A stretch of 64,000 bases of DNA from Chloroflexus sp. Y-396-1. Lineage in GTDB: Bacteria > Chloroflexota > Chloroflexia > Chloroflexales > Chloroflexaceae. Below the pieces are notes generated by a model. That model ran no database searches. It was not told where the DNA came from and saw only the letters and a program-made list of their open reading frames with translations. The position numbers were made by a program, and so were the translations under genes. Shown in pieces: positions 21,662 to 37,633 of this stretch. Numbering within the stretch: position 1 is the first letter of the stretch; each line of letters starts with the position of its first letter. Where the stretch lies: NCBI RefSeq assembly GCF_000516515.1, contig NZ_KI911784.1, forward strand, positions 3,510,633 to 3,574,632, read 5' to 3'.

Positions 21662-21670
21662 TATTGTTCA

Positions 21671-22126
21671 TCAGCGTGGTTGAGTGGCTGGTCTAGGGCC
21701 ACCTTCGATCAGCATCCGCAGGCGATCAAGTTGAATACGCATATCGAGAGAAGCAAAAATTTGGCCGAGACCAACCACAAAGACGCGCAAGCTGGGATCG
21801 GGCACTTCGTATTCAACCCGATTTTGCACAATCGTGCGTTCGCCATCGGCAAACCAACGCCAGAGTTCTTGCCCCTGCCAGAGACCTTCGATCTTCAACA
21901 GAATGTGATTGCTATCACGTTCAGTAACGGTATATGTTGCACCGGCCAGCGCGAGTGACTTCAGTCGTAGTTTGTGTTTGCTGCCCAGGGTCATTAACTC
22001 GCCTTCGATGGGGTCAAGAACGACCAGCGGCGAACGCCACTCCTTCATTAGTTGCGGATCAGTTAGATAGCGTTCTACAGTCGCAGGTGGCGCCTTAATC
22101 GAAACGAACTGTTCTTGCACGATCAT
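21671..22126 (-). CDS. csmP: SRPBCC-family protein, probable chlorosome protein CsmP
   Basis: This 151-residue protein has the START/polyketide-cyclase (SRPBCC) fold: IVQEQFVSIKAPPATVERYLTDPQLMKEWRSP at the start, a long strand set, and a C-terminal amphipathic helix (RIQLDRLRMLIEGG). The fold binds hydrophobic ligands, which would suit carotenoid, quinone or bacteriochlorophyll intermediates. GGAGAG precedes the ATG. It is the last gene of the island, after the NDH-2-like gene with 16 bases between. The csmP name rests on gene order compared with what I remember of C. aurantiacus; the family call is from sequence. Confidence 0.7.
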   Translation of the reverse strand: MIVQEQFVSIKAPPATVERYLTDPQLMKEWRSPLVVLDPIEGELMTLGSKHKLRLKSLALAGATYTVTERDSNHILLKIEGLWQGQELWRWFADGERTIVQNRVEYEVPDPSLRVFVVGLGQIFASLDMRIQLDRLRMLIEGGPRPATQPR

Positions 22127-22142
22127 GCTTACTCTCCTCTAG

Positions 22143-23312
22143 CTATGCGCTTTCGATTGTAGCGCGATAGTATTCTTCGATACCGCGTTTCAGCATCAGA
22201 GCCGGATAGCCTGTCACCGGTACACCCAGGGCATTGCCCACAGCATCGTTCGGTCCTAGCGAAACAACTTCACCGAGTTCGACCGGTTCGTAGGCGCGTG
22301 GCGCTTCACCGCGTGCTTCTGCTGCCAATATCTCAGCTAGATGCTCACCCTGACGCATCGCGTATGATGCAGTTGGTGGCAGAGTACCACCACGACCATC
22401 AGGAACTGCCGCGCAATCACCAATTGCGAAGACTGCTGCCTGTCCACTCACGCGCAAATAACGATCCACTAGCACCCGACCCATGCGATCGGTGGGAAAG
22501 CCTGCTTCGGCGAGGAGGGCTGGTGCGCGGATACCGGCCCCCCACACGATAGTCCCGGCCCGCAATATGCGACCATCGGCAAAACGGAGTAATTGTGGTT
22601 CAACCCGTACAACCGGTGTTTGCAAGAAGATATTCACACCCAAGCGTTCCAGCCGACGCACGGCCTCATTGCTAGCCCAGGTGCCGAGATGCGGTAAGAG
22701 ATGATCTTCTCGTTCGATCAGAGCAATACGGACTTCGTTGCGTGGTGCTCCAGTTTGCCGACAGAGATCATCGGCCCATCCGGCCAGTTCACCGGCCAGT
22801 TCACAACCGGTATATCCACCTCCTACAATGGCAGTCGTCATTGCAATCCGCAGCTCGGTTGGATCGGTCAACGTTGCAGCCCGGCTAAACTGGCTTATCA
22901 GATGCTTACGCAGGGCAATCGCATCGGGGAAGGTTCGTAGGGGCAGCGCATACTCGCGGGCGCCCGGAACCTGAAAGGCAGTTTCGCTGCCCAGAGCAAT
23001 AACCAATCGATCATATTCCACACTTCGGCCATCAGCAAGGGCAACTCGTCGTTCCAGGGGATGGATTGCCTGTACCCGACCCTCGATCCGTTCTACCTCA
23101 CGGCCTTGAAAGAGCTGATCGAGCTGATAGATGGATTTCTGGTCGGTAATCCCGGCGGTAGCAGTCAGATGCAACAACTGAATCAATTGATGGTACGGAT
23201 ATTGATCAACAACGTGAATAGTAATATCCAGCCCGTAAGTGCGACGGAGGCGGGCCAGATCGAGCGCAGTACGAAGACCGGCATAACCGGCGCCAAGAAT
23301 CACGATCCGCAT
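22143..23312 (-). CDS. NDH-2-type NADH dehydrogenase (FAD)
   Basis: A 389-residue flavoprotein with two dinucleotide sites: IVILGAGYAGLRTALDLARL at the N-terminus (FAD) and AIVGGGYTGCELAGELAGWA near residue 160 (NADH). FAIGDCAAVPDGRGGTLPPTASYA near residue 280 is the FAD-binding ATG/GD motif. This matches type II NADH:quinone oxidoreductases. The ATG at 23310-23312 starts the FAD motif directly and follows GGAG. It lies between csmN and csmP, so a redox role at the chlorosome or its quinones is plausible (inference). A long hairpin upstream may reduce its expression relative to csmMN. Confidence 0.85.
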   Translation of the reverse strand: MRIVILGAGYAGLRTALDLARLRRTYGLDITIHVVDQYPYHQLIQLLHLTATAGITDQKSIYQLDQLFQGREVERIEGRVQAIHPLERRVALADGRSVEYDRLVIALGSETAFQVPGAREYALPLRTFPDAIALRKHLISQFSRAATLTDPTELRIAMTTAIVGGGYTGCELAGELAGWADDLCRQTGAPRNEVRIALIEREDHLLPHLGTWASNEAVRRLERLGVNIFLQTPVVRVEPQLLRFADGRILRAGTIVWGAGIRAPALLAEAGFPTDRMGRVLVDRYLRVSGQAAVFAIGDCAAVPDGRGGTLPPTASYAMRQGEHLAEILAAEARGEAPRAYEPVELGEVVSLGPNDAVGNALGVPVTGYPALMLKRGIEEYYRATIESA

Positions 23313-23446
23313 AGTAGCAAAGCTCCGTGGAACAGTAACCTCAGAGGCATCACCAATTGCCTCTCTCTTCACAGCATACCACGGTCTGACCGCCGGTTGA
23401 CTGCACAAAAAGCACAACTTACTACTCTACCTGACAGAGAGACAAA

Positions 23447-23492
23447 CGCAGAGGATCGGGATGTGTAGGCTGACACATCCCACACCTCTGCG
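23447..23492 (-). terminator. Long bipartite hairpin after csmN, terminator or attenuator
   Basis: Outer arms CGCAGAGG/CCTCTGCG (8 bases) and inner arms GGGATGTGT/ACACATCCC (9 bases) are separated by a three-base internal loop, with a six-base apical loop. On the minus strand a T-rich tract (TTTGTCTCTC) follows. It starts 21 bases after the csmN stop. No separate promoter for the next gene was clear, so it may permit partial read-through. Confidence 0.7.
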
Positions 23493-23513
23493 TCAACCGA
23501 CAACCTCAACCGA

Positions 23514-23951
23514 TCACGGCGCCGGTGGTGTCTTGGGTGGGGTTTCGACCCACTCATCAACCTTTGCCGCACCCTGCTCGACGGCATCAGCAGCGCGGCT
23601 GGCTGCCCGGCTGAAGCTCGTTCCCAACTCTTCGGCAGCACGAGCCAGGCGTTCGGTAAACGAACGTACCTGCTCGCCTACGCGCTGTGGGCTAGGCAGT
23701 GTGATCTGCGGCGGATCGGCGGCAAAGATGTCGTCAACCACCCGCTCCGAAACGTTAGCCAACTCCTTTGGAAAAGCGACAACAGCCATCGCTACTTCTG
23801 CCATTGCCCGGCGTACTCGCCGTCGTGAATTGCGGGGGAGCAGCACTAGCGGTACCGAGGCGACAGTCAGGCCGATCCGGGTAGCGCCACCGACGAAGCT
23901 AGCCGCCATCTCAAATAGTCCATCACGCTCAGTCGTCGTTTCATTGCTCAT
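23514..23951 (-). CDS. csmN: Chlorosome envelope protein CsmN (18 kDa type)
   Basis: The protein has 145 residues and is paralogous to the next gene: EMAASFVGGATRIGLTVASV then PLVLLPRNSRRR matches SAMEFGGGIARLGFSLF then PLALLPPESRQH in CsmM. The conserved part is a Gly-rich hydrophobic stretch ending in a Pro turn, then a basic amphipathic helix. A C-terminal extension (about 65 residues, SFTERLARAAEELGTSFSRA) is a further amphipathic helix. The ATG at 23949-23951 is preferred over that at 23955-23957, because GGAGG is eight bases from the former but almost abuts the latter. The name comes from homology within the pair, size and gene order. Confidence 0.78.
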   Translation of the reverse strand: MSNETTTERDGLFEMAASFVGGATRIGLTVASVPLVLLPRNSRRRVRRAMAEVAMAVVAFPKELANVSERVVDDIFAADPPQITLPSPQRVGEQVRSFTERLARAAEELGTSFSRAASRAADAVEQGAAKVDEWVETPPKTPPAP

Positions 23952-23988
23952 ACTCATCTCCTCCTTTGCTCACCATGAGCAATCAGCG

Positions 23989-24279
23989 TTACTTCGTCTC
24001 TGACTTAGGTTCTTCACCCTCGGCTGCCCACTTCTCAATGCTCTTCCCGGCGATCTCGGCAAAATCGCGGGGCAGCGAAGCGAATGCGTACATCAACTCT
24101 TTGGTCGCATTGCGCATATGCTGGCGCGACTCCGGTGGGAGCAAAGCCAGCGGTAGTGTGAAGAGCGAGAAACCAAGCCGGGCAATCCCGCCACCAAATT
24201 CCATTGCCGACTCAACGAAGCTGTCGCTACGTCGTACTGGAACGCTGCGTACCCGCACCTCACCTTCGGTCTCCGTCAT
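23989..24279 (-). CDS. csmM: Chlorosome envelope protein CsmM (11 kDa type)
   Basis: With 96 residues, the size fits the known 11-kDa chlorosome protein of C. aurantiacus. It contains EFGGGIARLGFSLFTLPLA, a hydrophobic stretch with LLPP, and a helix (HMRNATKELMYAFASLPRDF); the C-terminus is charged. It shares its central ~65 residues with CsmN. A perfect AAGGAGGTG precedes the ATG, fitting high expression. It follows the bacteriochlorophyll synthase gene by 26 bases. The hydrophobic part is too short and Pro-broken for a normal transmembrane helix and would suit the lipid monolayer of the envelope. Confidence 0.8.
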   Translation of the reverse strand: MTETEGEVRVRSVPVRRSDSFVESAMEFGGGIARLGFSLFTLPLALLPPESRQHMRNATKELMYAFASLPRDFAEIAGKSIEKWAAEGEEPKSETK

Positions 24280-24305
24280 AGTTACACCTCCTTAAATGGT
24301 AACGG

Positions 24306-25223
24306 TCAGCCAAAATAGCCGCCTACGAGTAAACCTGAGATGATCTGGATTAAGGCCACAAATGGATTTGAGGCCAGGAGATAGCGCACATAGTTCTGCT
24401 GGGTTGGTTCCTGGTAGAGCTTCATCTGATTATAGATCGGCGCAACCAGTGCCAGCAGCATAAATGCTGCTACCCAATACTGTCCCCATATCAGTGCCAG
24501 AACAAGAAGCATGGCCTCGAAGCCATTAATGGTCAGGTATGCCACAATCAGGGTGCGTTTGACCCCAATCGCCACCGTTAGCGATTGCAATCCTAACTTG
24601 CGGTCGCCTTCAACACTCTTGATATCGTTGAGGAAGAGTAAGCCGGCTGCCAGACCACCATTAATCAATGCTACCAGCACACTTTGCCATGTCAGAGGAG
24701 CAAAGATCAGATGTCCCGCCAACCAGCTCATACTCACGTAGCCTAAGCCGACCGCTGGTGGTCCTAGCCAGAAATGCTTCTTCAGCTTAATCGGGGGCAT
24801 GCTGTAAATAACCGACAGTATAATCCCGAGCAGGGCGAGCAGGACGATCAACGGCCTACCGAACACAAATGAGACCAGTATTGTCGCTGTGCCGAGTACA
24901 ATCCAGTTCCAGCGTGCTTCTGCCAGCGAGACGATTCCAGCCGGAATCGGTCGTTGTGGATCGTTGATCGCATCAAGCTCACGGTCAAAATAGTCGTTGA
25001 TGCTCTGGCTAAAACCGGTACCGAGTGGGCCGGTCATTAATGCACCAAGCAGCAACAACCACCAGTGATTGGGTTTTGTCCAATCAAATCCTCGCTCAAA
25101 ACCTGATGCCAGTGCGCCACAGAAACAGACCAAAACTGGCGAGATCCAAGTCACCGGATCGGCCAACTCAATGTGAGCCCGGATTTTTCGGCTGAGTGAG
25201 ACACGTTGTTCAGTCGAGATCAT
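24306..25223 (-). CDS. bchK: Bacteriochlorophyll synthase (prenyltransferase), probably BchK
   Basis: A 305-residue UbiA-superfamily membrane prenyltransferase with about nine membrane helices. The first Asp-rich motif is NDYFDRELDAINDPQRPIP and the second is LLFLNDIKSVEGDRKLG. The FSQSINDYFDR context and IPAG are typical of the ChlG/BchG/BchK group, which attaches the isoprenoid tail to (bacterio)chlorophyllide. Position next to bchU and csmM favours BChl c synthase (BchK) over BChl a synthase (BchG). The upstream site is weak (GGTAAAC), and the gene is 59 bases after bchU. Confidence 0.85.
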   Translation of the reverse strand: MISTEQRVSLSRKIRAHIELADPVTWISPVLVCFCGALASGFERGFDWTKPNHWWLLLLGALMTGPLGTGFSQSINDYFDRELDAINDPQRPIPAGIVSLAEARWNWIVLGTATILVSFVFGRPLIVLLALLGIILSVIYSMPPIKLKKHFWLGPPAVGLGYVSMSWLAGHLIFAPLTWQSVLVALINGGLAAGLLFLNDIKSVEGDRKLGLQSLTVAIGVKRTLIVAYLTINGFEAMLLVLALIWGQYWVAAFMLLALVAPIYNQMKLYQEPTQQNYVRYLLASNPFVALIQIISGLLVGGYFG

Positions 25224-25282
25224 AGCTGTTTACCGCATCGCCGGGCAGAAGCTGCACCGGTCACAAGACAATGGCATCTCAC

Positions 25283-26347
25283 TTATGGCTTCACTGCCTG
25301 ATATAACACGTGATCATACCCTTCATCAAGCGTCACATCGGTAAATCCGATCTGGCGCAGCAGGTCTGGATACACGCGGTGGTCTTTAAATTCGAGCACC
25401 GAAAAGCTCATCCCGATTGCACAGAGGTAGTGGGTTAGATAGTCGTAGTTGGGATGATGGGGATCGCTAATGACCATATCAAGGATTAACACGCGACCAC
25501 CGCTTGGCAGGGCATCGTATGCCTTTTTCAGCAACATCGTGCAGAACTGAGCGTTCATCGGATAGAGGATGCGCGAGAAGAGGACGGCATCACCCTGTGG
25601 GTATGGTTCGCGATACATATCGATCGCAACCGGTGTAATCCGATCACTCAGTCCTTTGGCGGCAACATTTTCACGCACCAGATCAAGCGCGCTCGGCAGA
25701 TTAATCAGTGTCACCTTGAGCTGAGGAAAGGCCTGGCACAGCGCTGCTGCAATATCGCCGATCCCCCCACCAACATCAACCAGAGTCTGCACATCGGCAA
25801 GTCGTGCTCGCTTGACCAACAGCTCGGTGAAGAGCTGGATGTTCGAGCGGTGCAACGTCTCATAGAACAGGCTATCTTCGCGGGTGCGTGGCGGGTGAGG
25901 GACGATGCTGGTAAAATCAACTTTCCCCCGTACCACATCGGCGAGCCGCAGATAGTAGTTTTCAATCAGATCGGCAATGTAATCAACGAACGGTACCATC
26001 GTCATATTACGATGACGTTCTGGATCGGCAAAGAATTGGTCGGCGAAGGGAGTCAGTTGCCACAGATCACCTTCTCGTTTCACCAGGCCGACCTGTTCGA
26101 GCGTGATAAGGAACTTTTCCAGCCGCTGTGGTACCGTCTCTGTTACAGTTGCCAAATCGGACAGAGTACGCGGCGCTGCGGCCAGGAGATCGAATAGCCC
26201 TAAATCCTTGGCCGCTTTGATCACGAAGAAATCAACCGTTCCTTTAAAGACCATGTCGTAGGCCCGGTTGGTTGCCGCAAACAGCTCTTGTTGTTCAAGT
26301 GCTACGGCGTCTGGCATCATTGACTCAACCGATGGTACAGTCGTCAT
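25283..26347 (-). CDS. bchU: Bacteriochlorophyllide C-20 methyltransferase
   Basis: The 354-residue SAM-dependent O-methyltransferase-type enzyme (winged-helix N-terminal domain, Rossmann C-terminal domain) agrees with remembered Chlorobaculum tepidum BchU along its length. Examples are AYDMVFKGTVDFFVIKAA, PHPPRTREDSLFYETLHRSN, the SAM site VDVGGGIGDIAAALCQAFP, AVLFSRILYPMN, GGRVLILDMVISDP and the end YDHVLYQAVKP. BchU methylates C-20 to give BChl c rather than d. GAGGGGGA precedes the ATG. It follows the membrane protein gene by 31 bases. Confidence 0.93.
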   Translation of the reverse strand: MTTVPSVESMMPDAVALEQQELFAATNRAYDMVFKGTVDFFVIKAAKDLGLFDLLAAAPRTLSDLATVTETVPQRLEKFLITLEQVGLVKREGDLWQLTPFADQFFADPERHRNMTMVPFVDYIADLIENYYLRLADVVRGKVDFTSIVPHPPRTREDSLFYETLHRSNIQLFTELLVKRARLADVQTLVDVGGGIGDIAAALCQAFPQLKVTLINLPSALDLVRENVAAKGLSDRITPVAIDMYREPYPQGDAVLFSRILYPMNAQFCTMLLKKAYDALPSGGRVLILDMVISDPHHPNYDYLTHYLCAIGMSFSVLEFKDHRVYPDLLRQIGFTDVTLDEGYDHVLYQAVKP

Positions 26348-26378
26348 GCAATCCCCCTCAGGCGCAGATGTTCGGTTG

Positions 26379-26879
26379 CTACGAGATAACCGAAGTCGAA
26401 TCTTCTGTCTTGGTGGCCAGCCGATTTAGCAACGGCTGGAAAAAGATCGGAATAAAGCTGAGCCACCAACTGATGTAGCCGAGCCAGGCAAAGGTACGGT
26501 GTAACCGTTTCTGATACGGATGGTCCTTCATCGTGTGACCCCACCGATGACCGGTAATCATCGCACCTACCATGCCGATTGTTGGCAGCGGGCCGGTGAT
26601 CATAAAGTAGATTTTCAGCCAGCGGGGTTGGTGTTGCCCCCCAAACCGCTCTTCGCGGAACAGACGCTCGATCCCAACCAGTGCAACCATTAGGTTCATC
26701 AACCAGTCGAGCGCATGTGCCAGGTTGGCCAGCCGGGTACGGAGTGCGGCCCGTTCTGGTTGATAATCGTTGCCTTCCTGCCGACATAAGTAGAGTACTG
26801 CGGTATAACACGCGAGTGATACTCCCGACACGGCCGCCATTGCGTACAGTATGAACCGCTCAAAGTTCGATGATTTCAT
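26379..26879 (-). CDS. Four-TM membrane protein upstream of bchU
   Basis: A 166-residue protein with about four membrane segments: FILYAMAAVSGVSLACYTAV, ALDWLMNLMVALVGIERLF, IYFMITGPLPTIGMVGAMIT and TFAWLGYISWWLSFIPIFF. Between the last two lies a His-rich loop (GHRWGHTMKDHPYQKRLHR), which could bind metal, haem or a pigment. I do not recognise the family. The ATG at 26877-26879 has no Shine-Dalgarno, and a strong promoter is so close that the message may be leaderless. Its position just before bchU suggests a link to pigment or envelope formation. Confidence 0.7.
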   Translation of the reverse strand: MKSSNFERFILYAMAAVSGVSLACYTAVLYLCRQEGNDYQPERAALRTRLANLAHALDWLMNLMVALVGIERLFREERFGGQHQPRWLKIYFMITGPLPTIGMVGAMITGHRWGHTMKDHPYQKRLHRTFAWLGYISWWLSFIPIFFQPLLNRLATKTEDSTSVIS

Positions 26880-26888
26880 GCAATTTGT

Positions 26889-26916
26889 ATTATAGTACAA
26901 ATCAGCGATATTTCAA
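26889..26916 (-). promoter_or_regulatory. Internal promoter within the chlorosome island
   Basis: Minus strand TTGAAA (26911-26916), a 16-base spacer and TATAAT (26889-26894), overlapping the last codons of the upstream lipase-like gene. Nine bases separate the -10 box from the ATG at 26879. It would supply bchU, bchK, csmM and csmN independently of the distal promoter. Confidence 0.65.
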
Positions 26917-27626
26917 ACAACAATCGGTGAGGATCCGACTAATACGCGCTGCCAATTTCTTAACCCATCGGGGTCGCCGTACCACGGTCGTCCGTGGATC
27001 GATGAGTGGTACAGACCGGGTACCACTAGATATTCAGCGCCAGGTAATGCTGCACAGGTCAGCGTGGTAATGCCGTCCCCCCAAGCTTGAGCACCAGATG
27101 GCCCATCGATCATGACATAGCTGTTGTAGGCCATTCGTTCGATCCAGCGCCCGTTGCGATTCGCCTGAATGCTACGCCCGATGATAGAGGTGTAGCGGAT
27201 ATGGTCGTAGTATGCTCCTGGATAGTGTTGATTCGTAAACCCCACTGTCTGCCTTGTCCAGAATTCCTTGCTATGATGCGGTGTACCGAGCATGACCAGG
27301 TGATGGACAAAGCGATGACCACCGTATATCTCACCTTTATATGGGTGATCGCCGAGATACATTCGAGCTACCGTACCACCTACGCTGTGGGCCACGATTG
27401 TCACACTATCTGCTCCGGTCTCTTGTAACGCCTGAGCGACGGTGGCGCGCAAGATGCGCAAGACCGGCCGAAAATCCCAATCGCGCGTCAATGCCCAGCG
27501 CAATCGTCCAATTGGGGTGATGAAGACCTGAAAATCGAACGGTGGCCGAGAAAGAACCTGGGCCAAGGTTTTGTAATCATCAGGACTGGTCAGGTAACCG
27601 CCAATAATAACCAGTGGACGAGTCAT
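26913..27626 (-). CDS. Lipase-like alpha/beta hydrolase, paralog 2
   Basis: The 237-residue product has RPLVIIGGYLTSPDDYKTLA at the start, the nucleophile elbow VAHSVGG (first Gly replaced by Ala) and MLGTPHHSKEFW after it. The C-terminal His is probably GLYHSSIHG. It is clearly paralogous to the preceding gene. The closest general family is triacylglycerol lipase or PGAP1/DUF676-like hydrolases. The ATG at 27624-27626, after GAGAG, is preferred to the codons upstream. Located in the chlorosome island, it may act on envelope lipids or ester-linked pigment tails; this is inference. Confidence 0.75.
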   Translation of the reverse strand: MTRPLVIIGGYLTSPDDYKTLAQVLSRPPFDFQVFITPIGRLRWALTRDWDFRPVLRILRATVAQALQETGADSVTIVAHSVGGTVARMYLGDHPYKGEIYGGHRFVHHLVMLGTPHHSKEFWTRQTVGFTNQHYPGAYYDHIRYTSIIGRSIQANRNGRWIERMAYNSYVMIDGPSGAQAWGDGITTLTCAALPGAEYLVVPGLYHSSIHGRPWYGDPDGLRNWQRVLVGSSPIVV

Positions 27627-27637
27627 ACGTGCTCTCA

Positions 27638-28321
27638 CTAAGCGTCGAACCAGAGTGGCACTACATTACGAGCACCGTACCAGGTTGACGGTGCGTTGTA
27701 CGGTGCGTGACGGGCACCCTCAAGAATCAAGTTGTCCGCTCCAGCCAGATAACATGCCGCCGTCGGAACAATTCCATCACCGATGAGATTTCCATCACCA
27801 AACGAGACCTCGTAGGAACGGTAGGCAATCATCTCTTCTGGTGAGCCGAACCGGCGACCACGCACGCTCCGACCGGCAACTGCGCGATACTTGATATGCG
27901 GAAAGGCCGCACCGGGATACCGCGCTTCCAGCCAGTCAGCAAATTGCTTGACCCATATTTCCGAAGTAGCATGAGCGGTACCGAGCGTAGTGAGACTCGC
28001 CACGACCTTGTGACCGGCATAGCGAACACCCTGATACGGTTCATCGGCCAGGTACGCTCGGGCAATTCGCCCACCGGCGCTATGCCCGATGAGATCAATT
28101 TTATCTGCACCAGTTTCTTGTAATGCAAGTTGTACCGTGGCCGCCAGGGCATCGAGGGCTGGACCGAAATTCGGATCGCGCAACGCCAGCCAGTCTAGCC
28201 GACTGAAATTGACAACGTAAACGATTCGATTATACGGCGGTGCGGCCAGTATCCGCGCCATTCCTAAGTAATCGGCGGGTGACGAGAGCCACCCGCCCAT
28301 AATGACAACTGGACGAGGCAT
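27638..28321 (-). CDS. Lipase-like alpha/beta hydrolase, paralog 1
   Basis: The product has 227 residues. RPVVIMGGWLSSPADYLGMA begins the fold, LIGHSAGGRIARAYL holds the nucleophile Ser, and TTLGTAHATSEIW follows. GDGIVPTAACYLAGADNLIL and EGARHAPYNAP carry the likely Asp and His. It shares the whole architecture with the next gene (26913-27626), pointing to a tandem duplication. There is no signal peptide, so it is probably cytoplasmic, facing the chlorosome or inner membrane surface. Three bases separate it from the YTP-repeat gene. Confidence 0.75.
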   Translation of the reverse strand: MPRPVVIMGGWLSSPADYLGMARILAAPPYNRIVYVVNFSRLDWLALRDPNFGPALDALAATVQLALQETGADKIDLIGHSAGGRIARAYLADEPYQGVRYAGHKVVASLTTLGTAHATSEIWVKQFADWLEARYPGAAFPHIKYRAVAGRSVRGRRFGSPEEMIAYRSYEVSFGDGNLIGDGIVPTAACYLAGADNLILEGARHAPYNAPSTWYGARNVVPLWFDA

Positions 28322-28324
28322 AGG

Positions 28325-29038
28325 TCACTCTTTATTTTCAGAGCGTTCAGTTTCAGTCGTCACCGTTGATTTGTTGTTGCCGTTTCCATTATCGGCAACT
28401 ACTTTGATTCGACGGATGGTGCTATTCTGCGGCTTTGCCGGCTCACCGGGGAGTGCATTGATAACGGCATTGCACAGATCACCACCGATACGTAGCAATT
28501 CTTCGGTCTGGAAACGAATCCAGTGGCCGTAGAAGTTAAAGACCTTCTCGGTTGTAGTGCGTACTTCACGAGTAAAGGCTTCTAGACCCTGTGGTGGAAG
28601 AGCGCCTCGTGCATACGAACGTAGCAGATAGCCGATAGGTTGGACATCCGTCGGTGGCTCATCACCAGCCTGGCTCCGTCGTAGCGGCGTTGATGGCGTT
28701 GGCTCTTCGGAAGCCGATGGCTGATACGCAGGCGGAGTGTAGTTGCGCGGCGTAAACGACGGCGTGTACGATGGAGTAAACGACGCACTCCCAGGCGTAT
28801 ACGAGCGTGGTGGTGGAGTGTAAGTTGCCCGACCTGAGCCTGATGCCATCGGTGTGGCTTCATCAGCATAGCGTACCGGCTCATCATAAGTCAGACCCAA
28901 GAAGCGCTGAAGCCAAATAGGCATCCAGCCCGGCCCAGCCGCCTCTCTGAGCCGTGGCTCTTCTTCAGTCAGACCAAACCACCGACGTACAAAACCGGGT
29001 AGCCAACTAACAGTGTCATTTTCATTGAAGCGATTCAT
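28325..29038 (-). CDS. Trp-motif and YTP-repeat protein of the chlorosome island
   Basis: This 237-residue protein belongs to no family I recognise. Two N-terminal repeats of about 20 residues share a W-x-P...R-x-x-GLT-x-x-EP pattern: WLPGFVRRWFGLTEEEP (~residue 12) and WMPIWLQRFLGLTYDEP (~residue 38), both likely amphipathic Trp helices. A low-complexity section follows (TYTPPPRSYTPG, SYTPSFTPRNYTPPAYQP). The helical C-terminal domain holds VFNFYGHWIRFQTEELLRIG, then TIRRIKVVADNG and a charged tail. GAGGAG precedes the ATG. It may be an envelope-surface or scaffold protein. Confidence 0.65.
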   Translation of the reverse strand: MNRFNENDTVSWLPGFVRRWFGLTEEEPRLREAAGPGWMPIWLQRFLGLTYDEPVRYADEATPMASGSGRATYTPPPRSYTPGSASFTPSYTPSFTPRNYTPPAYQPSASEEPTPSTPLRRSQAGDEPPTDVQPIGYLLRSYARGALPPQGLEAFTREVRTTTEKVFNFYGHWIRFQTEELLRIGGDLCNAVINALPGEPAKPQNSTIRRIKVVADNGNGNNKSTVTTETERSENKE

Positions 29039-29053
29039 ACCCGCTCCTCTCTA

Positions 29054-29935: not shown

Positions 29936-29947
29936 AGAGGATCCTCC

Positions 29948-30955: not shown

Positions 30956-30969
30956 ACGCGCCCCCTTCG

Positions 30970-32073
30970 CTATTCTACCCACAGCCGCAGCACTTCTCCT
31001 TCAACTCTGGCTCGCAGTCGGCCACCGTCAACCAGGCCGGGCAACAGTACGTGACGCCGCAACTGACCAAGCTGAACAACGACCTCTTCATTCGCAACGG
31101 CAATATCGAGGGATTTGGGGTCGAGGAACGGAATAAGAAGCCGCATATCGCGATCACTACTTTGCGGGCGCGGTGGCTCACTCATAAAGATGTCACCATC
31201 ACGGTAGAGTGCTGCACCACGCAATGCCCATGTGTCGCGGTCGGTCGCTGTTGCATCAATTTGCCCGATCCGTAGCAGTGGTCGTGCGCGACTCGTCTCG
31301 TGGCTGAACTCGTGGCGACTCTCATCATCAACCTGATCCGGCGTTCCGTTGACAATCACTTCGTCGCTGGCAAGCCCATAGAGACCGAATGCAGTCAATG
31401 CTGAGCGGAGTGGTGGCAGACGGAGTTCCGGTGGTAAGACAACCATACGTACACGTGCACCGCTCTCAGTCTCAAGCCGTGCCCGTTGCGCTTCTAACTC
31501 AATCCGTAGCTCTTGCAGGGGCGCAGTAGCACTTGGCGCCAGAATGGCGGCTGGAATCATTGCCTGTTCTTGCGAAGCACGCGATTTTCCCGGTCCGCGA
31601 TCAAGCCCGAAGATCAGACGGACTGCCCATCGCAACACATCAGGTAGCGTCAAGGCTCGCAGGAGGGAATCCGGTGACGGACCATCGAGAATCAGCAGAT
31701 CAAACCGGCCTGATTGACGGGCGCGCTCGGCGACTAGCATTGCCGCCACCGCATCAATACCCGGGAAAGCGGGCAACTCATCAGAGCCAAGATCGCGCAA
31801 GCGGGAAACCAACCCACTGCGCAACGAAGGTCGCACCTGCTCCCAGCGGCGTGCTACTTCTTCGTGAGGATGAATCTCCATTGCTGCCAGATTTGGTTCT
31901 AGTTCGAGTGGGCGTGAACCAAGGCTCTGATGGAGCAGATGGCCGATCAGATGTCCTGGCCCGCTCGAGGCTAGCAGGGTGCGATAGCCGCGTCGCGCAG
32001 CATGACATGCCGTCGCCAGCGCTGCCGCGCTTTGTTGGAGTTGATGATGAGCAGTAAAGATCAGTGTGCGCAT
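30970..32073 (-). CDS. ArsA/Get3-like protein without P-loop
   Basis: The 367-residue protein keeps the ArsA outline: MRTLIFTAHHQLQQSAAALA at the start, LILDGPSPDSLLRALTLPDV in place of the Asp/Thr-rich switch, and an HSP20-like C-terminal domain (MRLLIPFLDPKSLDIAVAN ... LLPGLVDGGRLRARVEGEV). The P-loop GKGGVGKT of its paralogs is replaced by AHHQLQQS, so ATP hydrolysis by the usual mechanism is not expected. The signature Cys residues are also absent. It may be a regulatory or structural partner of the two active paralogs. The ATG at 32071-32073 was chosen; a TTG further upstream is the alternative. Confidence 0.72.
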   Translation of the reverse strand: MRTLIFTAHHQLQQSAAALATACHAARRGYRTLLASSGPGHLIGHLLHQSLGSRPLELEPNLAAMEIHPHEEVARRWEQVRPSLRSGLVSRLRDLGSDELPAFPGIDAVAAMLVAERARQSGRFDLLILDGPSPDSLLRALTLPDVLRWAVRLIFGLDRGPGKSRASQEQAMIPAAILAPSATAPLQELRIELEAQRARLETESGARVRMVVLPPELRLPPLRSALTAFGLYGLASDEVIVNGTPDQVDDESRHEFSHETSRARPLLRIGQIDATATDRDTWALRGAALYRDGDIFMSEPPRPQSSDRDMRLLIPFLDPKSLDIAVANEEVVVQLGQLRRHVLLPGLVDGGRLRARVEGEVLRLWVE

Positions 32074-32142
32074 GGAGAGTGCTCGCAACCGGTGCTAGAA
32101 GCAGCCGGTATAGTCAACAGGATCGTTCCAACGAACAAGCGA

Positions 32143-33366
32143 TCATGCCGCTTCGACTTGTTGTTTACTAGTCGTGCGTTCAACCGGTACCTCGTAAAAG
32201 GCCAGGCGCAGGATACCATCTTCGTATCGATGGTCACCGAGCGTGCAATCGTACAATACACGCGGCAAGGCAATGGTACGTTCGATTCGGCCCACGGTAA
32301 TCGTCAAATCTGGGCCAATATGGCTTACCTCGATTGTTTCGCCGGGGTCAAGGAACGGCAAGCGCAGACAGAGATCATATTGACCGGGTTCGCCATCATC
32401 ACTCCATTGTTCGAGCCAGATGGGTCGCTCATCGTACAGCAATGCGCCGGGATCAACCTCACCAAAGGTCAGACGTCCGATATGCAGCAATGCCTCGACT
32501 CCAATCGGTTCACCACCTTGCAGTACGGTACGGAAGATTGGTGTGGGCGCAAAGCTGGCTTCAATCTCAGCCAGATATTGTTGCTGGAGGTTCACCCAAT
32601 AGTCAAAATACGGACCAAGATCGGTACGATGGGGTAAAATCTTATTTACCAGCACTGCATCTAATTGTAGGCCATACAGACTGAGAAAGGTATACGCCCG
32701 TCGTGTCTCAAGCAACGGCAAACGTTCTGGATTGAGCACTAACCGCACGGATACATCTGAACTCACCAGGAAATTTGCCAGTTGCTCCATCCGTTCAAGC
32801 AGTTTCCCGACCTCTTCAAAGAAGCGGTCGTCGGGCAAATCACGGCGGAAGGGACGCGCTACATTGGCAATTCCCCGGTACACCCGGAAGAGGCGTTTTC
32901 CTGCCTCACCGCCGATAATCATTTCCGGATATGCCAGCAGACGTAACGTATTCCCGGTTGGTGCCGTATCAAGTACGATAGCATCCCAGCGCCCGCTTTG
33001 TGCTTCGTCCATAACCCGCTGCAAGGCTAGGATTTCATCGAGTCCTGGTTGATTGGCCAGCTCAGCGGCTGTTGACCGTTCGATCCCACGTGCGGAGTAG
33101 GTTGCAGTGACAAATTGTTGGAAGCCGCCCAGGTTTTGACGCCACTCATAAATAGTATCTACCTCAAGGCCGTAAAGATGAGGTGCGAGCGGGGTCGGTC
33201 GATCACGGCTGATCGCAATCCCCATCACATCGGCCAGCGAGTGGGCCGGATCACTTGACAACACCAACGTTCGGCGACCGGCACTGGCAAGCATTACTGC
33301 TGTTGCCGCCGAGAGTGTTGTCTTACCAGTACCACCTTTGCCGGAGTAGATAATGACGCGCGTCAT
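32143..33366 (-). CDS. ArsA/Get3-family ATPase, second copy
   Basis: With 407 residues, it has the deviant P-loop YSGKGGTGKTTLSAATA at the N-terminus, LVLSSDPAHSLADVMGI (switch with the DPAHSL motif) and VLDTAPTGNTLRLLAYPE (the DTAPTGHTLR-type motif). The C-terminal ~80 residues form an HSP20-like beta domain (CLRLPFLDPGETIEVSHIG). Get3 homologs deliver tail-anchored membrane proteins; ArsA extrudes arsenite. No ArsB or ArsR is nearby. GAGGGA precedes the ATG. A role in inserting or chaperoning chlorosome envelope proteins is inferred. Confidence 0.85.
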   Translation of the reverse strand: MTRVIIYSGKGGTGKTTLSAATAVMLASAGRRTLVLSSDPAHSLADVMGIAISRDRPTPLAPHLYGLEVDTIYEWRQNLGGFQQFVTATYSARGIERSTAAELANQPGLDEILALQRVMDEAQSGRWDAIVLDTAPTGNTLRLLAYPEMIIGGEAGKRLFRVYRGIANVARPFRRDLPDDRFFEEVGKLLERMEQLANFLVSSDVSVRLVLNPERLPLLETRRAYTFLSLYGLQLDAVLVNKILPHRTDLGPYFDYWVNLQQQYLAEIEASFAPTPIFRTVLQGGEPIGVEALLHIGRLTFGEVDPGALLYDERPIWLEQWSDDGEPGQYDLCLRLPFLDPGETIEVSHIGPDLTITVGRIERTIALPRVLYDCTLGDHRYEDGILRLAFYEVPVERTTSKQQVEAA

Positions 33367-33409
33367 ATTCCCTCATGTGCCTGCAATATCGCTTTTCCCC
33401 CAACCCCAT

Positions 33410-34759
33410 TTACGAATCGACCGAATCGGTGGTCGTATCATTGTGCGATTCGGACGTTGCACCACTGCCACTAACCGCAGCCGGACGGTCAGTCCGACTC
33501 ACCACGATCCGACGTACCGGTGTTGACGTTCCATTTTCAGCAGCCGGTGACTCTGCTCGGCGAATGCTAATCGCACGTCGTACCGGTTGCGCATCGTTAG
33601 GAGCAGGCGGAGTTTCAGGCGCCGATGGTTGCTGCACCGATGGTTCGGCACCAGATGCGGGTGCCGATGCCGATTGACGCACGGCTGCTCGTACTGCGAT
33701 ACGGCGCTGGGTTGGTTCCTGGGCTGGCTGTTGTTCGGTTGGTTCAGCGAACCGTACTGCTGCCCGTACCACCGGACCGACGGGGGCGAGCGGTCCACCT
33801 TCAGCTTCCTGGCGGGCAGCAGCGTAGTATAGGCCACGCATTGCATTGCGTCGCACGCGGGGGTCTTGCATGTTATTGAGCAGTTCAGTGGCCCCACTCA
33901 GTATCTCGCTGGCACGTCGCATACCACGAGCCAGGCCACGCGGTACTTCGAGCATCAAGCGTAACGATCGGCTCACTTCGTACATATTGGGCTGCTCAGG
34001 CAGAGTTGGCAATGGCCCGACCGGCGCCGTCGGTGCAGGAGAAGCTGATGCGGGAGCACCGCGCTGACGCTCGTAGGCTGCAATCAGATTACCCGGTGAA
34101 ACCGGTTTCGCCTCTTCTTCCTCAGCTTTTGAACCAAACTTCCACCACGGCTTTTTCTTGGGCTGTGTGGGTTCAGGTTCAGGTGCTGGTGGCGGAGCTG
34201 GTTCGCTGGAAAGGAAAAACGGTGGTAACGGCTTACGCTCAACGGCGGGGAATTCTGCTTCAAATGCTTTTACCAACTCTTCACCACTGAGGCCTGCCAG
34301 TACCTGATCACCAACCCATGCTACCATCTTTGCCAGCACGTCAACATCTTCGACCGGCATGTAATCAAGTGTATTAATAATCACTCGTTCTGGTTGACCG
34401 GCATCCTGCACTTCACCGAGTGCAACTCGACGTTTGCGCGGCGGTGTTGCCGGTATCCGCAGGGCAAGACTCACGCGCCCGTGCCAGGGATCCCAGGTCT
34501 CGGCGCGTACTACATCCACATCGCTCCATGGAAAGCCATCAACGGTATCGTTGAAGAAGCCACGTGCCCACAGGATCAACCGCCGATCCGTTAAGGCAAC
34601 AAAATCGGCGAGGGCAAGGCCGCCAATACGACGCCGTTGTTCATCAAGGAGTGTACCGTCGAACAGTGCTAACAGGATTTCGCCCTCTTCGAGCAATCCA
34701 CGCTGCTGCATCTCTTCGACGCTTGCCATACTAACATTGACACCGAGAAATGGGCTCAT
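33410..34759 (-). CDS. PH-like N-terminal, proline-rich protein next to csmA, copy 2
   Basis: This 449-residue protein has a N-terminal domain of ~100 residues with bacterial PH/GRAM-like pattern (ILLALFDGTLLDEQRRRIG, FVALTDRRLILWARGF), a Pro/Glu-rich segment, and a helical middle part (LRLMLEVPRGLARGMRRA ... MRGLYYAAARQEAEGG). The tail carries repeated basic motifs: QRRIAVRAAVRQ, VRRAISIRRAES and VRRIVVSRTDRP. Its N-terminal domain is homologous to that of the preceding gene. AAGGAG precedes the ATG at 34757-34759. Not recognised as a named family; a structural or assembly role at the chlorosome is inferred. Confidence 0.7.
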   Translation of the reverse strand: MSPFLGVNVSMASVEEMQQRGLLEEGEILLALFDGTLLDEQRRRIGGLALADFVALTDRRLILWARGFFNDTVDGFPWSDVDVVRAETWDPWHGRVSLALRIPATPPRKRRVALGEVQDAGQPERVIINTLDYMPVEDVDVLAKMVAWVGDQVLAGLSGEELVKAFEAEFPAVERKPLPPFFLSSEPAPPPAPEPEPTQPKKKPWWKFGSKAEEEEAKPVSPGNLIAAYERQRGAPASASPAPTAPVGPLPTLPEQPNMYEVSRSLRLMLEVPRGLARGMRRASEILSGATELLNNMQDPRVRRNAMRGLYYAAARQEAEGGPLAPVGPVVRAAVRFAEPTEQQPAQEPTQRRIAVRAAVRQSASAPASGAEPSVQQPSAPETPPAPNDAQPVRRAISIRRAESPAAENGTSTPVRRIVVSRTDRPAAVSGSGATSESHNDTTTDSVDS

Positions 34760-34801
34760 ACCTGCTCCTTGGGCGGTTGCAGCCGCCGGTGATACCAATA
34801 C

Positions 34802-35881
34802 TTACGTCGTGCGATCTTGATCGGCATCTCCCGATCCACTCAACGCTGCTAGTGGTGTACGTTGTACCGGGGCAGTCCGGCGGCGGAGCGGGATGTCACG
34901 CCGATCAGAAATGTTCATTGCTGTGCTTGGCGAGGTTGATTGCATTGTCGGTGCTTCACGAGCTGCTGGCGAACGTCGACGCAACGGAATCTCGTGATAG
35001 CGATGGGGCGTCGGTTCTGGTTCAGGTGGTGGTGAATCGGCTGAAGCCGACGACGTTGGTTGAGGTACCCCCTGACGATTCAAAAACGCCAGCGCAATCT
35101 GTTGAGCAGCAGGATTATTTGCAACAGTCTGAACTAAATCATTAACAGCACGAATAGCTTCTGTCAATTCTCGAATACTTGCCGGGCTTAAATCAAAGGG
35201 TAAATCAGCTTCGCGAAGGGTGCGGCGTAACGTATCCCATGCCGAGCGAGCGAGGCGACCGGCAGTAAAAATTTGATTTGGCGGCAGGCTGGCCGGGTCA
35301 ACGATAAATGGTGCATTCGGCGTTGCTGGGGTACGCGATGCACCACCGGGCCAGCGATACGGCGTTTCATCAGGGCGTAGTGCATCTTCCGAACCATAAA
35401 TGACAGCGCCGAGGGCTGTCAATACATCGGGAGCTGCCTGACGCGGATCGATTCCGGCAGCCAACGCCGCACGAGCTGTTTCGGTAGCAGTGCGTAACAA
35501 AATCATCAAGGCCGGTACATAGGCCTGAGGCACCAGTGTCAGTGTAAAGACTTGTTCTTCGGTATCAGGGGCACTGAAACCGAGCGTCACTTCACCGTGG
35601 ATCGGGTCAATCCCTCGTCCATCGATGAGCGTCAATTCATGCAATGGAAAGCCATAGCACAAGTGTCGTCCGTAGTCACGTGCCCACAAAATGACACGTA
35701 GATCGGTAATCAGACAATAATCGTGCAACGTCGGTCCACTGAGCCGTTGTCCCTGCTGGTCGAGCAACACACCATCAACCGCGACCAGTACTTGCTCGCC
35801 GGGATCGAGCACGTCAAGGCGCGTTATCTCTTCAAGATGAGCCGGTACGGTTGTATGACTGTAGTAAAGCAGGTTAATCAT
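34802..35881 (-). CDS. PH-like N-terminal, proline-rich protein next to csmA, copy 1
   Basis: The product has 359 residues and follows csmA directly. The N-terminal domain (VLVAVDGVLLDQQGQRLSG, YCLITDLRVILWARDYGR) is homologous to copy 2. A central helical part (LTEAIRAVNDLVQTVANNPA) is followed by a Pro-rich tail with two copies of a basic motif, HEIPLRRRSPAA and RDIPLRRRTAPV. GGAG precedes the ATG at 35879-35881. There is no signal peptide or membrane helix. It is a good candidate for a lipid-surface protein of the chlorosome; unlike the Csm names, this has no assigned function that I know of. Confidence 0.7.
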   Translation of the reverse strand: MINLLYYSHTTVPAHLEEITRLDVLDPGEQVLVAVDGVLLDQQGQRLSGPTLHDYCLITDLRVILWARDYGRHLCYGFPLHELTLIDGRGIDPIHGEVTLGFSAPDTEEQVFTLTLVPQAYVPALMILLRTATETARAALAAGIDPRQAAPDVLTALGAVIYGSEDALRPDETPYRWPGGASRTPATPNAPFIVDPASLPPNQIFTAGRLARSAWDTLRRTLREADLPFDLSPASIRELTEAIRAVNDLVQTVANNPAAQQIALAFLNRQGVPQPTSSASADSPPPEPEPTPHRYHEIPLRRRSPAAREAPTMQSTSPSTAMNISDRRDIPLRRRTAPVQRTPLAALSGSGDADQDRTT

Positions 35882-35898
35882 AACGCTCCAGAGGGATC

Positions 35899-35930
35899 GG
35901 CGTGAAGCGGCAGGATGCACACTTCACGCC
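35899..35930 (-). promoter_or_regulatory. Hairpin in the csmA 3' spacer
   Basis: GGCGTGAAG and CTTCACGCC form a perfect 9-base stem around a 14-base loop, between the csmA stop and the next start. No T-run follows. It may protect the csmA message or reduce read-through to downstream genes. Confidence 0.55.
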
Positions 35931-35941
35931 TGCCCACCAAC

Positions 35942-36181
35942 CTAGCGGTTGAAGCGCGAGCGGATGCGCTTCGGACGGAAGCCGTTGCTCGAGCTGCTGA
36001 ACGCTCCCTCGCCCGAGCCACTCCGGGATACGCCCGGGTAAGCATTGCGGTTGATGTTGTCAACCGCGGCCGCGGTGGCCTGTAGCGCATTCGAGACCCA
36101 TTGCCAGTGGCCCTGGAACATAATGTCGCCGATTTGCGCCACTTGGGCCGACGACTCCGAGAACCAGCCTCTCGTCGCCAT
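35942..36181 (-). CDS. csmA: Chlorosome baseplate protein CsmA precursor
   Basis: The product is a 79-residue precursor. After Met removal, residues ATRGWFSESSAQVAQIGDIM onward give the 51-residue mature chain ending AYPGVS, the size known for the C. aurantiacus protein. The remaining 27 residues (starting RSGSGEG and ending FRPKRIRSRFNR) form the C-terminal propeptide. The likely BChl a ligand is His25 of the precursor in FQGHWQWV. A perfect AAGGAGGTG stands before the ATG at 36179-36181; an in-frame start two codons upstream lacks such spacing. CsmA binds BChl a in the baseplate between chlorosome and membrane. Confidence 0.96.
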   Translation of the reverse strand: MATRGWFSESSAQVAQIGDIMFQGHWQWVSNALQATAAAVDNINRNAYPGVSRSGSGEGAFSSSSNGFRPKRIRSRFNR

Positions 36182-36224
36182 GCACACACCTCCTTAATCA
36201 AACGAACCTCATTATTTAGGTCAT

Positions 36225-36240
36225 CGGAGGCAAGCCTCCG
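36225..36240 (-). promoter_or_regulatory. Hairpin in the spacer upstream of csmA
   Basis: CGGAGG and CCTCCG around CAAG on the plus strand (CGGAGG-CTTG-CCTCCG on the minus), between the ArsA-type gene and csmA. No T-run follows, so it is more likely a processing or stabilising structure at the 5' side of csmA than a terminator. Confidence 0.45.
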
Positions 36241-36263
36241 AGGAACCCCACCATCAGGCTGCC

Positions 36264-37463
36264 TCAACGTTGCGCCATCTGGGGCGCCATGAAGGGCACG
36301 CTTAACCATTCGCCCTCCATCTCTGCCTGACCGGCTTCAAGACCGGCCAGACTGGTCGGCAGCGTAATCACCCGCCGAAAGTCACCGATCTGCACCACCA
36401 ATTCATCACCGTTCTGATACAGATCAAGCTGTGACACATCGGCAAAGGGCAATCGAATTTTCACCCGGTAATATTTATCGCCTACTTTGCTGATTTCCAG
36501 CGGTGCCCGGTCGTAGAGCACGGCGGTTGGATCCATATCACCGTAGATGTCATCACCCATCTGGCGTAGCTTCTCCAATCCGACCACCTCTTCGGGATAA
36601 TACGGCACCCGTCGGATTGGTAATGGCACAAACGAGTGTTCGACATCTTGCAAATAACGCTGCTGAATGTCACGCCAGTGGTTCAAATAGCCGCTATCCT
36701 GGTCGAGCGGCAGTATCTTGTTGACAACAACCATGTCTACAGTCATGCCGTACATTGATAGATAGGTCAACGCACGCTGGCTCTCTTTAATTACCATCTT
36801 TTCTGGGTTCATCACCAGCCGGATCGACGTCTCGCGTGGATTGGCCAGTGTTGCCGTGACCCCTTCCATCTGGCGGAACATCTCATCGACAGCGTCGTAC
36901 ACTTCGGGTGGCGCAACCATCTTGTTGAGGCCAGGGGTGATCTTACTCATCGGACGGATCAATGGCTTAATCACATAGCGCTCAGCGCCACGTAACATAT
37001 TGATTGCCCACTTGAACGTTTCGGGCGCTGATAGCAGGCGCAACGTTTCGCCGGTAGGAGCACAATCAATGACTAGCAGATCGTAATCGCCGCGCTCTTT
37101 GTGCTTCTTAATCCGAATGAGTGGGAAGGCCTCTTCCATTCCGGGCAGGACGCTCATTTCGTCGGCCAGGATGCCCTGCACGCCCTGCTCGGCCATTAAC
37201 TGCGCGAAATGCTCGCGCACGATACCCCAGTTGCTCTCGATGTCGTGATAAATGCTCACTTCAAGCGCATCGAGATTGTTGGTAATGCGGACTGGTTCAG
37301 GGCCGAGAGGCCCTTCGAGATCGAGTGAGTCGGCCAGTGAGTGGGCCGGATCGGTGCTCATGACTAATGTCTTTAAGCCACGATCCGCAGCCCGGAGGGC
37401 TGTTGCTGCTGCGACGCTTGTTTTGCCAACGCCGCCTTTTCCGGTAAAGATTAGAGTGCGCAT
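36264..37463 (-). CDS. ArsA/Get3-family ATPase, first gene of the chlorosome island
   Basis: A 399-residue protein. MRTLIFTGKGGVGKTSVAAA carries the P-loop, LVMSTDPAHSLADSLDLEG the switch, VIDCAPTGETLRLLSAPE the DxAPTGxTLR motif, and the C-terminal ~85 residues (KVKIRLPFADVSQLDLYQNG, REDVITLP-like region) the HSP20-like domain known from plant-type and cyanobacterial ArsA. I chose the ATG at 37461-37463 because it begins the conserved N-terminus and has AAAGG upstream. No arsenic genes are nearby. It is the first gene after the promoter and directly precedes csmA, suggesting that it serves CsmA targeting. Confidence 0.85.
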   Translation of the reverse strand: MRTLIFTGKGGVGKTSVAAATALRAADRGLKTLVMSTDPAHSLADSLDLEGPLGPEPVRITNNLDALEVSIYHDIESNWGIVREHFAQLMAEQGVQGILADEMSVLPGMEEAFPLIRIKKHKERGDYDLLVIDCAPTGETLRLLSAPETFKWAINMLRGAERYVIKPLIRPMSKITPGLNKMVAPPEVYDAVDEMFRQMEGVTATLANPRETSIRLVMNPEKMVIKESQRALTYLSMYGMTVDMVVVNKILPLDQDSGYLNHWRDIQQRYLQDVEHSFVPLPIRRVPYYPEEVVGLEKLRQMGDDIYGDMDPTAVLYDRAPLEISKVGDKYYRVKIRLPFADVSQLDLYQNGDELVVQIGDFRRVITLPTSLAGLEAGQAEMEGEWLSVPFMAPQMAQR

Positions 37464-37562
37464 CAGGGCCTTTCCAGGAGCTACTGCTCGGCTGCCATCG
37501 ACTGCCGCCAATGCGGCGCCAGAGGTCTATAATCGACTACCACCTGAAGTTTTTGCTTAAAA

Positions 37563-37594
37563 GCCAAAACCTTCTGCGTTCCGTTGATTTTGGC
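37563..37594 (-). promoter_or_regulatory. Inverted repeat in the leader of the chlorosome operon
   Basis: GCCAAAA and TTTTGGC (7-base arms) with an 18-base loop. On the minus strand TTTT follows directly, so an attenuator-like stem is possible. It lies 10 bases downstream of the promoter -10 box. Confidence 0.4.
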
Positions 37595-37604
37595 CTGTAC
37601 CGCA

Positions 37605-37633
37605 ATAGTAGCACGAATATCCGCAAGTGTCAA
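37605..37633 (-). promoter_or_regulatory. Main promoter of the chlorosome island
   Basis: Minus strand consensus -35 TTGACA (37628-37633), 17-base spacer and -10 TACTAT (37605-37610), with a leader of about 135 bases before the ArsA-type ATG. It is the best-scoring promoter upstream of csmA by eye. Confidence 0.7.

Follow-up and report, generated by a model that had tools for sequence, protein, structure and literature searches.

How chlorosomes form is an open question, for which budding and aggregation models are described in passages of the literature (PMC9316378). A 64,000-nucleotide stretch (the window) of the closed 4.89-Mb genome of Chloroflexus sp. Y-396-1 carries, at positions 21671-37511, 18 open reading frames (ORFs) on the minus strand, transcribed in the order ArsA1, CsmA, PH1, PH2, ArsA2, ArsA3, abH (an alpha/beta hydrolase), zincin, P237, lipase A, lipase B, P173, BchU, BchK, CsmM, CsmN, NDH2-like flavoprotein, and CsmP. 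A first-pass annotation, made from the sequence alone, took them for an island dedicated to chlorosome building. It missed that an older core, ArsA1-CsmA-PH(-ArsA), is common to the window's family (Chloroflexaceae), a second Chloroflexota lineage, and Chlorobi, and is not specific to Chloroflexus.

The ArsA1-CsmA-PH core

Chlorobi loci were searched for with the CsmA chain of 2k37 (Chlorosome Protein A). This yielded 73 csmA loci, 72 titled green sulfur bacteria and one titled Latescibacterota (L145). The csmA on the latter contig is of the Chlorobi type at 98% identity, probably owing to a binning error. Wherever the sequence suffices, the order is ArsA1-csmC-csmA-PH-ArsA. The upstream ArsA, with 48-51% identity to ArsA1, is present in all 63 loci that extend 2.2 kb or more on that side, and csmC lies between ArsA and csmA in 70/70 loci with at least 0.9 kb (PF11098, 234 bits for L108). 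A PH-family ORF (E 5e-22 to 2e-16) directly follows csmA in 68 of the 73 loci; the contigs of the other five end at most 760 bases from the start of the csmA match. A second ArsA follows in all loci with at least 4.5 kb (65/65). The same order is seen in 11/11 further loci (G244-G250, G252-G255), mostly with a more distant CsmA and, in two, with the last ArsA cut off. Among 98 genomes of the Chlorobi class, PH is found in 89 and PF02043 in 96, and the two without PF02043 are also without PH. One locus of this class has an abH relative (37%), divergent, ahead of ArsA1 (L194:21-947).

In the sample of 158 genomes from the window's class, CsmA is found in 35. Thirty-three belong to the window's family and two to a second csmA-bearing Chloroflexota family (f5), which is probably Ca. 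Chloroheliales. The f5 genomes have the order ArsA1-csmA-PH-PH. ArsA2 (57-59% identity, beside another ArsA), zincin, and lipase are present in them but unlinked to csmA. A third PH-family gene of the f5 genome G085 lies on another contig (G085:C2:1569682-1570269). An ArsA tree was built by a quick search; its branches are long, most of all that of ArsA3, and each genome contributes no more than one or two copies from outside the csm loci. In this tree, ArsA1 of Chloroflexaceae, f5, and Chlorobi forms one clade with a Shimodaira-Hasegawa-like approximate likelihood ratio test support (SH-aLRT) of 96. ArsA2 of the two Chloroflexota families forms another (SH-aLRT 99), and csmA-bearing and csmA-less genomes share one further ArsA. 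The orthology of ArsA1 is also based on the gap in identity, at least 62% versus at most 48% among the matches listed.

Within Chloroflexaceae, the strand and order of orthologues are kept in 32/32 fetched csmA loci. A script confirms the order in 31; L057 fails the rule only through an over-long ORF start, and its tblastn matches are placed in order. ArsA1 and CsmA are present in all 32 loci, PH1, PH2, and ArsA2 in 30, abH, zincin, and P237 in 29, and ArsA3 and lipase A in 28. The counts for the remaining genes are 27 for CsmM and CsmN, 26 for BchK and NDH2, 24 for BchU, 17 for lipase B and CsmP, and 10 for P173. Part of these absences is missing sequence, because the contigs of L032, L042, L046, L050, L059, and L061 end inside the island. 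Lipase B, P173, and CsmP are also absent from some loci where the sequence exists.

According to a 2022 paper, CsmA is the sole chlorosome protein common to the phyla. This statement may need qualifying for two of these phyla, with ArsA1 and PH as candidates for a place in the chlorosome. The csm-bch part of the island and the presence of Get3d in green bacteria are already known; no paper linking the two was found among open-licence PMC papers, and an ArsA-csmA-PH link appears in none of the titles, abstract openings, and passages covered. For the Chloroflexus csm/bchU/bchK cluster, a published account notes that bchU and bchK group with chlorosome genes; the passages in question discuss neither the helper genes nor the Chlorobi link, and "arsA" does not occur in the text (PMC3150298).

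Chlorosome or phototrophy

The PH family is found in 36 of the 158 class genomes, which are all 35 csmA-bearing genomes plus G025. ArsA1, at 62-100% identity, is found in the 35 plus G020 (36/158). Zincin also occurs in 36, namely 34 csmA-bearing genomes, G020, and G025; the csmA-bearing genome without a zincin match is G031, whose csmA contig stops 1 kb past csmA. G020 and G025 have no csmA hit, yet most of the island is present in them, spread over several contigs. The lipase family (E < 1e-40) is found in 38 class genomes, comprising the 35, G020, G025, and G004, and only weak lipase matches (E 5.6e-9 or worse) occur in 11 more.

Type-II reaction-center genes (PF00124) are present in 64 class genomes (G066 is below the cut-off), among which the f5 pair is not found, and 32 of the 64 have no csmA hit. 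With G020 and G025 set aside, none of the remaining 30 has PH, zincin, or an ArsA1 orthologue. These 30 include six Chloroflexaceae (G004, G005, G018, G019, G021, and G022), which are apparently chlorosome-free phototrophs. Many others belong to family f4, and the length of their frames (about 650 aa) agrees with the fused pufL-pufM described for Roseiflexus (PMC3150298). Among 400 genomes drawn from the phylum Chloroflexota, PH is found in 22, all with csmA. Since the genomes are related, the counts are not independent, and it is the second lineage and the second phylum that carry weight.

The first-pass annotation named as refuting the occurrence of the same genes in chlorosome-free relatives in an unrelated context. 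In the 158 genomes, no such occurrence was found for ArsA1, PH, or zincin; one lipase gene is an exception and is weighed below. The distribution supports that these three helper genes go with the chlorosome and not with phototrophy, and they almost certainly serve the chlorosome.

Protein families and transcription signals of the island

The families named in the first-pass annotation are borne out by the ORFs, by Pfam and NCBIfam scores, and by the positions of published tags. The gene order is consistent with csmA Caur_0126, bchK 0138, csmM 0139, csmN 0140, and csmP 0142 (PMC3150298) and with csmA Cagg_1222 down to csmP Cagg_1206 (PMC8004040), as given in passages of these papers. Comparison with orthologues gives likely starts at 37463 for ArsA1, 35881 for PH1, 34759 for PH2, and about 23312 for NDH2. 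With these starts, the intergenic gaps are mostly short, as claimed (-13 to 76 bp), with one exception of 201 bp ahead of NDH2. The features are listed in Table 1.

Table 1. Genes and transcription signals of the island, in order of transcription (positions in the window)
Feature	Position	Strand	Basis
Island promoter TTGACA-17-TACTAT	37605..37633	-	Scan; both hexamers invariant in 8/8 Chloroflexus genomes (window counted)
Leader stem GGCCAAAA/TTTTGGC then TTTT	37561..37595	-	Kept in 8 genomes; z -2.0 for 101-base stretch
ArsA1, Get3d-type ATPase	36264..37463	-	PF02374 and PF17886; P-loop 34/34; clade support 96; orthologue of ArsA upstream of csmA in Chlorobi and f5
CsmA baseplate protein	35942..36187	-	PF02043 105.7 bits (cut-off 25); match to 2k37
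Stem-loop between csmA and PH1	35899..35930	-	z -3.0 for gap; both bases altered in 2 pairs across 8 genomes
PH1, PH-like N-terminal domain and Pro/Arg-rich tail	34802..35881	-	AF2 model, Foldseek, structure alignment; 359 aa
PH2, paralogue of PH1	33410..34759	-	Alignments; 449 aa
ArsA2, Get3d-type ATPase	32143..33366	-	P-loop 30/30; orthologue in f5 genomes (57-59%)
ArsA3, Get3d-like without P-loop, probable pseudo-ATPase	30970..32073	-	GKGGxGK[ST] 0/28 orthologues
abH, alpha/beta hydrolase	29948..30982	-	86.4 bits to BchO model TIGR03056 (cut-off 172.55)
Zincin (gluzincin-like)	29054..29935	-	HELAH 103-107 and E125 invariant
P237, N part variable, GALPPQGLEAFTRE segment conserved	28325..29038	-	Present in 29/32 family loci
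Lipase-like hydrolase A (GHSAGG)	27638..28321	-	Alpha/beta hydrolase family; alignment
Lipase-like hydrolase B (HSVGG)	26913..27638	-	Alpha/beta hydrolase family; some genera without lipase B
P173, 173-aa protein, probably membrane	26379..26900	-	Present in 10/32 family loci
BchU	25283..26347	-	TIGR02716, 596 bits
BchK, (bacterio)chlorophyll synthase family	24306..25223	-	TIGR01476, 425 bits; position of Caur_0138
CsmM	23989..24279	-	Position of Caur_0139
CsmN	23514..23957	-	Position of Caur_0140
Terminator-like stem-loop ahead of NDH2	23445..23494	-	z -4.1; conserved in 7 genomes
NDH-2-like flavoprotein (NDH2)	22143..23312	-	PF07992 (Pyr_redox_2)
CsmP, SRPBCC family	21671..22126	-	PF10604; position of Caur_0142, matched by gene order
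Stem-loop after csmP	21640..21662	-	10-bp stem, poor T tail

The three ArsA proteins score 313, 228, and 90 bits with PF02374 (cut-off 24.3) and 79, 62, and 32 bits with PF17886 (ArsA_HSP20, C-terminal; cut-off 22.5) for ArsA1, ArsA2, and ArsA3, respectively. The intradimeric Walker A motif GKGGxGK[ST], a two-lysine P-loop, is found in every orthologue of ArsA1 (34/34) and ArsA2 (30/30). ArsA3 keeps both domains and has no P-loop in 28/28 orthologues; it is Get3d-like and is not filed as an ATPase. The CxxC motif is carried by 0/34 ArsA1 and 0/30 ArsA2 orthologues, and its lack is shared with Get3d. The cut-off of the NosAFP equivalog NF050088 (325) is not reached by ArsA1, ArsA2, or ArsA3 (145, 77, and 85 bits), and their profiles match All4481 (3igf, NosGet3d) over nearly the whole length. 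Published Get3d (AtGet3d, NosGet3d/All4481) is alike in its ArsA/Get3 ATPase domain, its C-terminal alpha-crystallin domain (ArsA_HSP20), and the lack of CxxC, and NosGet3d is reported to bind tail-anchored clients (PMC10248533). What differs from published Get3d is that ArsA1 is linked here, in two phyla, with csmA and a PH gene, and that a third copy is without the P-loop. Get3d is noted in green sulfur and green nonsulfur bacteria in passages of the same paper, and the word chlorosome is absent from its main text (PMC10248533). A role in arsenite resistance was dropped, given the ArsA_HSP20 architecture and the lack of an arsB-type gene among the island genes.

In an earlier classification of ArsA proteins, cluster 11 is made up solely of Cau2 of C. 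aurantiacus (407 aa), two proteins of Chlorobi, and one of Candidatus Chloracidobacterium; Cau4 (399 aa) falls in the large cluster 8, beside proteins of Chlorobi (PMC2963123). By length and accession spacing, we match Cau2 to ArsA2 and Cau4 to ArsA1. Cluster 11 thus holds only proteins from chlorosome bacteria of three phyla, and the word chlorosome is absent from that paper. The same source describes gas-vesicle clusters in which ArsA also stands beside genes of a protein-coated organelle, with the difference that the organelle and neighbours are unrelated (PMC2963123). Outside the island, a third lipase paralogue adjoins a further ArsA (45-48% to ArsA1) in many csmA-bearing genomes; the places noted are G013:C126:107593-109522 (L092), G026:C55:10068-12098 (L091), and G000:C1:1259980-1260666 (L088). 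In the window's genome, it lies instead ahead of an SRP54/FtsY-type GTPase gene. This lipase and its further ArsA appear to be tied to csmA-bearing genomes.

PH1, PH2, zincin, P237, and CsmM match no Pfam family, and no NCBIfam family at its cut-off. Residues 1-190 of PH1 were modelled by AlphaFold2 (AF2) with a predicted local distance difference test score (pLDDT) of 87. The best match of the model is the PH-like domain of DENND3 (6b3y; Foldseek E 7.9e-6, prob 1.00), to which a structure aligner gives Z 11.5 and a root mean square deviation (rmsd) of 3.5 over 138 aligned residues; the bacterial PH proteins 3dcx and 3hsa are among the next Foldseek matches. The PH call of the first-pass annotation is borne out by this predicted fold of the PH1 N-terminus, a seven-strand barrel capped by a C-terminal helix. 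The zincin call stands in its motif, HELAH-x17-E (HExxH and a downstream Glu ligand), found in 29/29 orthologues. Its confident AF2 model resembles vibriolysin (3nqx; Z 8.9, rmsd 3.3, 166 aligned) by the second aligner only, and Foldseek gave no match at E <= 0.001; the thermolysin-like fold is putative.

S81, D182, and H205 are invariant in both lipase A and lipase B and likely form the catalytic triad. The assignment of abH as BchO was rejected at its score. P237 was tried as a distant relative of CsmM/CsmN, all having an LPP-type segment, and rejected at a profile comparison probability of 0.1%. BchK is below the cut-off of the bacteriochlorophyll c synthase model NF009058 and qualifies under the BchG/BchK-type model TIGR01476. 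For the NDH2 flavoprotein, none among the matches listed reaches an NCBIfam cut-off. Past the island, a 94-aa protein without a Pfam match (21221-21505) is also found 3' of csmP or NDH2 in many family loci at 51-95% identity and may be part of the island neighbourhood. Further downstream, a 230-bp tandem repeat (1.9 copies, 86%; 20447-20879) yields overlapping repeat-like ORFs on both strands.

The first-pass annotation placed all 18 genes between one consensus promoter and a terminator. The promoter is upheld by its invariant hexamers; the scan by itself hardly rises above chance (16 found versus 11.7 expected, sd 3.6). The leader stem, which shows no covariation in the Chloroflexus genome comparison, is a possible attenuator or regulator site. 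The hairpin in the 60-bp gap between csmA and PH1 is perhaps an mRNA stabiliser or processing site and could let csmA mRNA outlive the rest. At the far end, a stem does follow csmP, with a poor T tail. A single unit is doubtful. Because of the 201-bp gap, the conserved hairpin, and a promoter-like TTGACC...TATGCT after it (judged by eye and weaker in the window itself), we read two putative units, ArsA1-csmN and NDH2-csmP, with possible read-through between them.

A possible delivery route and its alternatives

From these genes and their distribution, we infer clients, substrates, and assembly steps as follows. The island would be a chlorosome-dedicated biogenesis cluster around the older core, in which ArsA delivers CsmA or envelope proteins with a PH partner, a proposal that we favour at about even odds. 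The hydrophobic helices of CsmA and other envelope proteins would be bound post-translationally by ArsA1 and ArsA2 and then handed over to the growing chlorosome, as suggested by the membership of these two ATPases in the Get3d family. ArsA3 could be a non-hydrolysing partner or regulator. Given the PH fold and long tail, PH1 and PH2 may act at the membrane or monolayer as partners for docking or scaffolding. In Chloroflexaceae, the core is surrounded by the pigment-finishing enzymes BchU and BchK and the envelope proteins CsmM, CsmN, and CsmP. More weakly, the lipases may adjust monolayer lipids, the zincin may process or clear envelope proteins, and the flavoprotein perhaps serves quinone redox. 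Of the dedicated building machine in the first-pass annotation, the tested helpers do track the chlorosome, and the division of labour into delivery, trimming, and assembly is conjectural.

Several points weigh against this proposal. CsmA is not a classical tail-anchored protein. NDH2-csmP looks like a separate unit, and L061 lacks ArsA3 between the genes that flank it elsewhere, where the sequence is present. A lone lipB relative (62%) occurs in G004, which has reaction-center genes and no csmA; the reading of G004 as a chlorosome genome in hiding was rejected, since the 3.6-kb contig L077 carries lipB alone of the island genes. Seven of the 98 Chlorobi-class genomes have a PF02043 match and no PH match, and csmA itself may be missing there, because most genomes of the class have 2-5 PF02043 hits. 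Zincin, lipase, P237, and CsmM/N have no match inside the 73 Chlorobi loci, so these genes are not core. The zincin model, which matched 36 Chloroflexia genomes, has no match in 15/15 Chlorobi genomes, in which a distant relative may exist. Since Chlorobi envelope proteins are processed too (PMC12214013), zincin is unlikely to trim CsmA in every chlorosome, and its role would on present evidence be limited to Chloroflexota.

Other explanations account for parts of the same evidence. It is conceivable, though on the unlikely side, that the island is a parts list and not an assembly machine: the PH proteins and P237 would be structural proteins of the chlorosome that have so far escaped discovery, either in the baseplate or as linkers from envelope to membrane, and the ArsA proteins would be ordinary chaperones. 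In every lineage covered, a PH gene comes directly after csmA; the PH proteins have long Pro/Arg-rich tails, and the products of the island's csm genes are structural proteins (PMC3150298). However, an abundant part should show in chlorosome protein lists, and the lists as excerpted (CsmAMNOPY; CsmA to CsmX of C. tepidum) hold none of PH size (359/449 aa). It is improbable that co-location reflects only shared regulation, such as anoxic induction, with general functions for the lipases, zincin, and flavoprotein. This would fit the lipB relative in G004, the coming and going of lipB, P173, and CsmP among loci, and the hairpin and promoter-like site of NDH2-csmP, but not the absence of ArsA1, PH, and zincin from the 30 csmA-less reaction-center genomes, nor the co-occurrence of zincin with csmA in f5 genomes, where they are unlinked. 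Known ligands of related ArsA proteins include arsenite, and bchU and bchK are in the same cluster; even so, we hold it very improbable that these ArsA proteins handle bacteriochlorophyll, quinone, or metal instead of proteins. The Chlorobi core adjoins csmC and csmA, and Get3d proteins bind tail-anchored clients (PMC10248533).

The delivery proposal can be extended, more tentatively and at somewhat less than even confidence, to an ancestral dedicated targeting system shared by the chlorosomes of Chlorobi and both csmA-bearing Chloroflexota lineages, in which a Get3d ATPase would deliver CsmA and other envelope proteins to a PH receptor on the growing monolayer. The Chloracidobacterium ArsA in cluster 11 hints at the system in all three phyla (PMC2963123). 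The fixed ArsA1-CsmA-PH core points to genes of C. tepidum, a transformable bacterium (PMC12214013), as candidate assembly factors; csmA itself is reported to be essential. CsmA is a natural candidate client for Get3d, a family found from green bacteria to chloroplasts. The core also bears on the single versus multiple origin of chlorosomes. If the extended proposal is true, proteins would be targeted to a monolayer-bounded organelle of bacteria by a pathway that predates the split, or the transfer, between reaction-center types.

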